A stretch of DNA of 64,000 nt from Roseimicrobium sp. ORNL1 (lineage in GTDB: Bacteria > Verrucomicrobiota > Verrucomicrobiia > Verrucomicrobiales > Verrucomicrobiaceae), in contig NZ_CP049143.1 of assembly GCF_011044495.1 (NCBI RefSeq), forward strand, positions 3,968,001 to 4,032,000. The letters run 5' to 3'. This document shows, piece by piece, positions 50,029 through 51,310 of this stretch (positions within the stretch are counted from its first letter, which is position 1; each line of letters starts with the position of its first letter). The notes under the pieces were generated by a model. The model did no database searches. It was not told where the DNA came from and worked only from the letters and a program-made list of their open reading frames with translations. A program made the position numbers and the translations under genes.

Positions 50029-50091
50029 TTTTTTGGGGGCGGTGAGAGCGACTGAGTAGTTTCGCGCGCGGTCGGGTTGTGATGCACTGAG

Positions 50092-50147
50092 CCTACCACC
50101 TCCGCCCGCTATAGACGGACGCGCAGGAGCGCATCCCCTACCGTCCA
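50092..50147 (-). repeat. REP unit 1
   Basis: Read on the minus strand this is GTAG, one extra G, then the hairpin GGATGCGCTCCTGCGCGTCC (50117-50136), then the tail CGTCTATAGCGGGCGGAGGT. The stem GGA-T-GCGC / GCGC-G-TCC closes on TCCT with a T-G wobble. It is head-to-head with unit 2. Confidence 0.88.
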
Positions 50148-50272
50148 TTTTTTGGGGGAGCGCTTACCTCGAGGATCTTGGAGGGCGGAACCGCTGCCAA
50201 AGTGGATAGGCGAAACGCATCAGAGCGTCTGATGTGCTACTCGCTCAGCACGTGAGCGCGCTCCTTCTAAAG

Positions 50273-50327
50273 TGGACGGTAGGGATGTGCTCCTGCGCGT
50301 CCGTCTATAGCGGGCGGAGGTGGTGGG
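50273..50327 (+). repeat. REP unit 2
   Basis: On the plus strand GTAG (50279-50282) is followed by the hairpin GGATGTGCTCCTGCGCGTCC (50283-50302). The single C-to-T change relative to the other units turns a C-G pair into T-G, so the stem survives. The tail is identical to unit 1 over 25 bases. It lies 121 bases ahead of the transposase start codon. Confidence 0.88.
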
Positions 50328-50447
50328 TCTGGACCGTTGCAAACCAAACCCACGTCCTATTTCCCCCGTCATTAACACGCCTTTTTGTCTTCACCCTGAC
50401 CATTTCTATTGCACCTGCCTCTACCCACCTGTTCCATCGCACCACCC

Positions 50448-50966
50448 ATGGCACGTTTGAATGAACACGACGCCAACCGGATCGGGCGGCATACACCCGC
50501 CCAAGGCATCGTGCTTTCGCCGACCATGCCCCTGATTCTGTTCTGCACCGTCCGCACCAAGGCACAGTCCGCATGGACGGCACAGGAGTTGGTCCACAAC
50601 ACTCTCCACGACATCTGGGTAAGTGACGCCACTGTGTGGCTGGTCGGACACTATGTCCTGATGCCTGACCATCTCCATTTCCTCTGTTGCCCACGCGCCG
50701 CCAGTGACAATGTGTCGGTCGAGGACTGGACCCAGTATTGGAAATCGCGCTTCTCGAAGCGGGTGCAGCAGCCGGAGTGGAAGTTTCAACGTGGGGTGTT
50801 TCATCATCGCGTGCGCAACGATTACCAGCTTCGTGAGAAGTTGGACTATATCCTCGAGAACCCTGTGAAGGCGGGGTTGGTGGAGAAAGCCGAAGATTGG
50901 CCGTGGCGTGGCTGTGTGCATGACCTTTCGGCGCACAATCGTTCGTTCGGGCGTGGGGGTGAGTAA
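50448..50966 (+). CDS. REP-associated tyrosine transposase (RAYT, IS200/IS605-related)
   Basis: 172 residues from the ATG at 50448; a TTG at 50409 is possible. It is a Y1 single-strand transposase: the HUH metal motif lies in GHYVLMPDHLHFLC (His75, His77), and the helix with the candidate nucleophile follows in FHHRVRNDYQLREKLDYILE (Tyr126 or Tyr134), then NPVKAGLVEKAEDWPWRG, a RAYT hallmark. The frame is intact. RAYTs bind REP hairpins with a GTAG or GGAG foot and cleave beside them; the four units around this gene have a GTAG foot. Such genes are usually single-copy and domesticated, so this may be a REP-spreading housekeeping-like activity rather than a classical transposon. Confidence 0.92.
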   Translation: MARLNEHDANRIGRHTPAQGIVLSPTMPLILFCTVRTKAQSAWTAQELVHNTLHDIWVSDATVWLVGHYVLMPDHLHFLCCPRAASDNVSVEDWTQYWKSRFSKRVQQPEWKFQRGVFHHRVRNDYQLREKLDYILENPVKAGLVEKAEDWPWRGCVHDLSAHNRSFGRGGE

Positions 50967-51023
50967 GAGTGGCGACGGCGAAGCGTTTGGGGTGGTGCGT
51001 GTGATGGTTTGCGATGGCCCTGT

Positions 51024-51078
51024 CCCACCGCCTCCGCCCGCAACAGCCGGACGCGCAGGAGCGCATCCCTACCGTCCA
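51024..51078 (-). repeat. REP unit 3
   Basis: On the minus strand GTAG (complement of 51069-51072) precedes the hairpin GGATGCGCTCCTGCGCGTCC (51049-51068). Its tail differs from units 1 and 2 (GGCTGTTGCGGGCGGAGGCG) in the TATAG segment while keeping the GGGCGGAGG core. It begins 58 bases after the transposase stop. Confidence 0.86.
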
Positions 51079-51220
51079 TAATTTTGGGAGGGGCGCTTTC
51101 GTCCAGAGCAAGTAGCACCTCAATCGCTTGGGTACATATTTGCTGCCCCATCAGTCTGAAGGCTCACAGAAGCGACTCCGCTCACCACGTCTCGGAAGGT
51201 AATCGTCCCTCCACCAAAAC

Positions 51221-51273
51221 TGCGGTAGGGATGCGCTCCTGCGCGTCCGTCTATAGTGGGCAGAGGCGGTGGG
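51221..51273 (+). repeat. REP unit 4
   Basis: GTAG (51225-51228) and the hairpin GGATGCGCTCCTGCGCGTCC (51229-51248) are identical to the consensus; the tail reads GTCTATAGTGGGCAGAGGCG. It ends 38 bases before the stop codon of the DMT transporter, so it lies in that gene's 3' region. Confidence 0.86.
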
Positions 51274-51310
51274 CACGGCATATCGTCGCGCCCATTCGTA
51301 TCGCTATCCC

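Follow-up and report, generated by a model that had tools for sequence, protein, structure and literature searches.

A RAYT gene amid four GTAG hairpins in a verrucomicrobial genome, with dispersed repeats that seem to lie within larger elements

The RAYT locus and its four hairpin units

The window, that is, the whole stretch of 64,000 nucleotides that was analysed, comprises bases 3,968,001-4,032,000 of a genome that forms a single contig of 7,957,748 bases (7.96 Mb). The locus under study consists of an open reading frame (ORF) for a RAYT protein and four REP units, arranged in the order REP(-) REP(+) RAYT REP(-) REP(+), with the GTAG feet facing inward within both pairs (Table 1). Its neighbours are a RecF/RecN/SMC-domain gene, an EamA transporter gene and a gene for a gyrase/topoisomerase IV subunit A. 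The number, order and inward orientation of the hairpins had been proposed in an initial annotation of this DNA, and a pattern search of the window with the 20-nt hairpin core recovered all four of them, as against a shuffle expectation of 0.01 for the window (four matches were reached in 0 of 100 shuffles). Because a REPtron is a RAYT gene with at least two inverted REPs beside it, the locus, with four units in two inverted pairs, belongs to this category.

Table 1. Features of the RAYT locus (positions are those of the window)
Feature	Position	Strand	Details
REP unit 1, left outer	50092..50141	-	hairpin 50117-50136; GTAG 50138-50141; one additional base separates them
Spacer of the left TT pair	50142..50278	.	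outer arm with equal A and B flank scores; inner arm of B type
REP unit 2, left inner	50279..50327	+	GTAG 50279-50282; hairpin 50283-50302, in which one C is changed to T and still pairs as G.T
RAYT / TnpAREP-type HUH-Y1 endonuclease ORF	50448..50966	+	172 aa from ATG; H75, H77, Y134
REP unit 3, right inner	51024..51072	-	hairpin 51049-51068; GTAG 51069-51072
Spacer of the right TT pair	51073..51224	.	B-type arm adjoins unit 3; A-type arm adjoins unit 4
REP unit 4, right outer	51225..51273	+	GTAG 51225-51228; hairpin 51229-51248
Left long inverted repeat (whole left TT copy)	50091..50346	+	pairs inverted with 51005-51274
Right long inverted repeat (whole right TT copy)	51005..51274	-	pairs inverted with 50091-50346

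Each of the four units carries a GT(A/G)G foot at a GC-rich hairpin, for which folding predicts an 8-bp stem and a 4-nt loop in every case. The fractions of shuffled sequences that fold at least as stably are 0.002, 0.050, 0.000 and 0.000 for units 1 to 4, respectively (500 shuffles each). The annotated hairpin with its GTAG is thus present four times, although not in identical form, given the extra base in unit 1 and the base change in unit 2. The arms of the units pair as inverted repeats of 46-74 nt that are 86-96% alike. At a larger scale, the two TT copies form long inverted repeats of 256 and 270 bp, with 74.1% identity over 278 columns (E 2e-21). An Rfam search of four loci (L112, L099, L039 and L038) gave no matches.

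The RAYT protein

The ORF is open from its ATG to its stop codon, and an alternative TTG start at 50409 would extend the product to 185 aa. As annotated, the gene is intact and encodes an HUH motif (HLH, residues 75-77) and the sequence NPVKAGLV, together with a tyrosine at position 134, within DYI. These HUH histidines and the single catalytic tyrosine are invariant in the ten homologues aligned. At the profile level, the protein scores 70.2 bits (E 1.7e-19) against NCBIfam NF047646, the REP-associated tyrosine transposase, which is below the curated cut-off of 80, and 13.1 against Pfam Y1_Tnp, below the cut-off of 23; the Pfam profile fits most subfamilies of the TnpAREP class only partly (PMC6006769). 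The sequence also matches the chain of the E. coli RAYT-REP crystal structure 4er8 (E 1.5e-7), which is the best Foldseek match (E 3e-6), and the sole one below 0.001, of a weak structure model built from three sequences (mean pLDDT 54).

In the E. coli protein, the residues that contact GTAG are W94, Q95, E100, H101 and R104 (PMC6006769). When the window RAYT was aligned by eye, Q95, H101 and R104 were found to be kept, while W94 is replaced by F and E100 by H; the first of these positions is W in the nine relatives described below. A tree of ten RAYTs left six of its seven inner branches open and grouped the window protein with that of G006 (94/99).

The REP1 family across the genome

The 20-nt core, which defines the family termed REP1, occurs in 82 copies at up to two mismatches (64 exact, 16 with one mismatch and two with two); ten further matches with three mismatches were set aside as near chance. 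The reversed pattern, used as a control, gave two matches in the whole genome at up to three mismatches. The unit is therefore genome-wide, and its absence elsewhere, which the initial annotation had named as a ground for abandoning its reading, does not occur.

Inverted pairs account for 76 of the 82 units. According to their orientation, these can be divided into 32 HH pairs (64 units), in which GTAG faces outward as in REPINs and the cores lie 106-110 bp apart, and six TT pairs (12 units), in which GTAG faces inward and the cores lie 166-180 bp apart. The TT type is thus rare (6 of 38 pairs), and the window accounts for two of these. The dispersed form of the family is accordingly the inverted doublet, the form described as REPINs (PMC3116915, PMC3686654). 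Inspection by eye assigned two of the six other units to HH pairs split by inserts and one to an HH pair whose partner is decayed, the remaining three being solitary. Whether the copies lie outside genes was judged from reading frames: 28 of the 32 HH copies, taken with 150 nt per side, contain stops in all six frames, and four contain an open frame.

Two inserts of ~0.3 kb, at L101 (G000:C1:2891676-2892007) and L114 (6526257-6526554), share the ends TTACCCACA/TGTGGGTAA together with CAGGAGC as a direct repeat of 7 bases, and both lie at the identical point of the REP1 hairpin. A 16-base pattern from their left end has just these two matches in the genome at up to one mismatch.

RAYT homologues and repeats in related genomes

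In a protein search of 115 genomes, 84 had some match at E 0.001 and eight besides that of the window had one below 1e-40. The latter value, set by ourselves, was taken to define RAYT-positive genomes, nine in total with that of the window; G066 (3.5e-27) was counted as negative. The flanks of the gene were inspected in the nine best relatives, namely the eight below 1e-40 and G066. Hairpin repeats adjoin the gene in all nine, and they do so on both sides except in G034, where they are confined to the downstream side; a '+' unit lies within ~65 bases of the RAYT stop in every case. They are GTAG-footed in eight, the hairpins of G066, whose protein has 37% identity, being without GTAG. The hairpins of the relatives differ from those of the window, and one variant is common to several genomes. 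The homologue of G011 has an in-frame TAG. A scan of the contigs of named relatives gave three distant loci.

Some of these loci present further details. At the G006 locus (L122), the RAYT gene ends in a TAG stop codon that is at the same time part of the GGTAG foot of the repeat that follows. At L124, L126, L127 and L129 (genus g8), the pairs beside the gene are often heterodimers with unlike '+' and '-' stems, and at the last three of these loci the repeat pairs are arrayed with a period of ~210 bases.

A second ground that the initial annotation had named for abandoning its reading, abundance of the unit in genomes that lack any RAYT, does not apply as a rule. At least five units were counted in eight of the nine RAYT-positive genomes versus six of the 106 others (Fisher 4e-8; within the family 3e-6), and the repeat count is associated with RAYT presence (Mann-Whitney p 2e-9 for the 115 genomes, 1e-6 within the family); the count for each genome is the larger of those from two patterns, and these p-values overstate the association, since the RAYT-positive genomes were the source of the second pattern and the genomes compared are related to one another. 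On the other side, three genomes without a close homologue hold 10 (G001), 15 (G051) and 17 (G053) units, the first of them having weak RAYT-like matches. As hairpins stand beside the nine best homologues and repeat numbers broadly follow the gene, a cognate RAYT/REP system is well supported.

The units retained in G001 without a close RAYT would also fit a decayed or chance cluster of hairpins around a transposase gene, with no working relation between them, as would the likeness of just 74% between the long inverted repeats of the window. This explanation is already disfavoured by the recurrence of a like association in the nine relatives inspected, and the ORF is intact with its catalytic residues, which makes it very improbable.

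Proposed mode of action

The reading preferred here, with a probability of roughly 0.8, is that of a RAYT/REP locus (REPtron) whose TnpAREP-type enzyme acts in trans on HH dimers and raises their number. The molecular steps would be those of TnpAREP, on which they are modelled (PMC8266576, PMC3733652), that is, binding of the GTAG foot and stem on single strands, a cut made nearby through the tyrosine, and rejoining. The window RAYT would most likely recognise the GTAG foot and the 8-bp hairpin in single-stranded DNA, for instance on the lagging-strand template; Tyr134 would cut beside the GTAG hairpin and the ends would then be rejoined. By acting in this way on the HH dimers of the genome, the protein could produce more copies of them. 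Binding, cutting and rejoining are thus ascribed to it by analogy, and it was presumably this RAYT, rather than another of the 17 RAYT-like genes of the genome, that spread REP1.

There is no settled account of the way in which REPs are spread by RAYTs, and the biochemistry cited here comes from gammaproteobacteria. The genome studied is a closed case: it has a single candidate for the cognate gene, 82 countable units, and relatives with and without the gene. The conservation of sequence around the repeats, described next, suggests that more than the GTAG-bounded doublet is copied. Taken together, the closed case and the conserved flanks allow a direct test, in another group, of what the true mobile unit is.

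Conserved outer flanks and a second hairpin family

Alignment of the 32 HH loci revealed that conservation runs well past GTAG and that the outer flanks of the two sides, termed A and B, are distinct. The conserved sequence extends ~65-200 nt past the doublet in most copies and ~0.4 kb in the longest. Flank A is recognisable in 24 of the 32 copies and flank B in 26, a flank being called at a score of at least 20 (a threshold of our own choice) against consensus words derived from the same copies; the repeat unit is therefore not bounded by GTAG, as that of a REPIN is. Mean pairwise identity is 0.66 for A and 0.60 for B, compared with 0.84 from GTAG to GTAG; the shuffled baseline of 0.26 for A is ungapped and not strictly comparable with these aligned identities. 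Distances in the flanks track those from GTAG to GTAG (Mantel r 0.46, p 0.003 and r 0.32, p 0.017), and those of A and B correlate with each other (Mantel r 0.66, p 0.0002). A search for flank A, in which 40 of 56 candidates were scored, gave 28 matches; all but one of them, 27, are located at REP1 loci, and two of the 27 are REP2-like pieces.

In the longest HH copies the terminal hairpin has the form GGGGGCA-nnnn-TGCC, found on the left in nine and on the right in seven of the 32. Hairpins of this form make up a second family, REP2 (GGGGGCATTCCTGCCCCC), of which the genome holds 153 copies at up to two mismatches (control, 0) and whose units stand on both sides of another RAYT-like gene, L038 (G000:C1:1038415-1039229). 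Among the REP2 matches listed, a number of copies carry compensating stem changes. No report of RAYT-linked repeats nested inside a second REP family was found among the open-licence papers listed by literature searches, and the nearest parallel among them concerns repeats of P. putida and P. fluorescens that adjoin other stem-loops (PMC3733652).

That most HH copies share sequence well past GTAG counts against the preferred reading, as it is not predicted for a GTAG-bounded mover; the profile scores below cut-off, the changes at two GTAG-contact positions and the repeat-bearing genomes without a close RAYT also weigh against it. RAYT action alone leaves the outer flanks unexplained, and either recombination or the copying of some larger unit must be assumed in addition. 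The same observations, namely conserved flanks with mutually correlated distances, the near confinement of flank A to REP1 loci and the REP2-like ends, would be expected if the repeats had spread mainly as composites (A flank, HH dimer, B flank and sometimes REP2 ends) by means of another enzyme or recombination, with RAYT as a mere hairpin-sharing neighbour. Such a history is nevertheless considered unlikely: conservation in the HH copies is highest at the hairpin and GTAG, eight of the 32 copies lack a recognisable flank on at least one side (six on both), and hairpins are kept alongside the RAYT homologues inspected.

The ends of the HH elements were probed with 20 flank pieces from ten HH loci in G001, a genome of the same genus, and both flanks were recovered close together for four loci, which were compared by eye. 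The element of L113 is absent at the matching site, where a REP2-like palindrome remains. That of L117 is also absent, and the site holds another insert with an IS200-like frame (L161, G001:C9:47300-49000). At the site of L119 (L160, G001:C9:124900-126200) an HH-like element with different hairpins is found, an indication that an element can persist through a change of its hairpins. For L083, G001 has part of one flank only and could not be aligned. One clean empty site, that of L113, is too few to fix the ends of the element, and no target duplication was established by eye in these four comparisons.

TT pairs and the shifted order of units

The spacers of the TT pairs resemble B and A flanks joined together. 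A comparable B/A-like junction arises at L094 through tandem duplication of an HH element; the two cores, of which one has decayed, are 159 apart there. The right pair of the window reads B and then A, the left inner arm is of B type, and the left outer arm is a tie (12 and 12); the scores of the two inner units favour B (20 and 20) over A (7 and 6). Elsewhere the typing of TT arms is weak, since among the 12 arms there is one tie and for four (3226292, 3235515, 3235686 and 7756034) neither type exceeds shuffles at 0.05. Given the B scores of both inner units, the view that the RAYT gene is carried in an HH element flanked by A at one end and by B at the other, like the dispersed copies, was rejected.

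The order of units in the window also differs from that of its relatives. The unit directly 3' of the gene is '+' in all nine relatives and '-' in the window, and the nearest 5' unit is '-' in six of the eight relatives that have one and '+' in two (G011 and G041), as in the window. The window order is thus shifted by one unit, so that the gene occupies an HH interval, between two inverted TT copies, rather than a TT interval. On account of the 3' unit, the symmetric arrangement was rejected as the normal form of the family.

A gene in an HH interval could be cargo of an autonomous mobile REPtron, carried within an HH dimer and moving together with it. The inner units, '+ RAYT -' with B-type flanks on both sides, have this form, a similar stretch (CCGTTGCAAA / CCATCGCAAA) stands on both inner arms at equal distance from the hairpin, and similarity to G001, which has no such gene beside recN, stops at the 3' end of recN. 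However, the gene with REP1 repeats is present once in the genome, so no transposition of the locus is seen; the inverted repeats differ by 26%; no empty site of the window RAYT locus was found; and published REPtrons do not seem to move as units, according to passages of PMC6006769. Movement of this kind is accordingly regarded as quite improbable.

A further proposal, doubtful in our own estimate, is that the replicating unit in the genus is a nested composite instead of a GTAG-bounded REPIN. It would consist of an HH dimer of one RAYT family with fixed A and B flanks, closed at its ends by the REP hairpins of a second RAYT, so that each of two single-strand endonucleases could set the whole of it, or portions, in motion. 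Under this proposal, the TT pairs would mark where A and B meet in tandem or circular forms, and the window locus would be an array of this kind whose HH spacer has been replaced by the gene.

Comparison with known systems

The RAYT/REP system itself is of a known kind; the order of its parts is unusual, and its repeats seem to be carried within larger elements. RAYTs between inverted REPs, and the co-evolution of the two, have been described (PMC2817692). With the gammaproteobacterial REPtrons, such as those of E. coli TnpAREP and S. maltophilia, the system shares an HUH/Y1 enzyme, inverted REPs beside the gene, a GTAG foot at a GC-rich hairpin, dispersed inverted pairs, and hairpins that vary between RAYT lineages. 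In contrast to them, the window order is phase-shifted relative to its own relatives, most dispersed pairs have conserved flanks outside GTAG, and the copy number is modest (82). Inverted REP doublets are also the dispersed form of the REPINs of Pseudomonas fluorescens (Bertels and Rainey 2011, PMC3116915); passages of that paper mention shared flanks for tandem clusters, whereas here they accompany most copies.

The initial annotation presented the verrucomicrobial setting as a new example. It is not new, since GTAG repeats of Opitutus terrae, a member of Verrucomicrobia, were published in 2013 (GTAG-17, -19 and -20; Di Nocera 2013, PMC3733652), together with GTAG repeats in the PVC group and their HH/TT dimers. 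O. terrae is highly enriched in GTAG repeats (PMC3733652). Compared by description, its repeats and those studied here are both GTAG-tagged palindromes that form HH/TT dimers; the GTAG-17 and GTAG-19 dimers are 1-2 bp apart, unlike the widely spaced cores of the present genome. According to the same paper, REPtrons occur in most of the species hosting GTAG repeats; a description of one in O. terrae itself was not found in its passages.

The TIRtrons of that study likewise have a RAYT-like gene between long inverted repeats (PMC3733652). Their repeats are unrelated to GTAG, whereas those of the window contain GTAG units, which places the locus outside this class. The RAYT-like matches in the window's genome number 17 (L031-L047), and at 16 of these loci, that of the window included, a repeated sequence is common to both flanks (E 0.01), L031 being the one with none.
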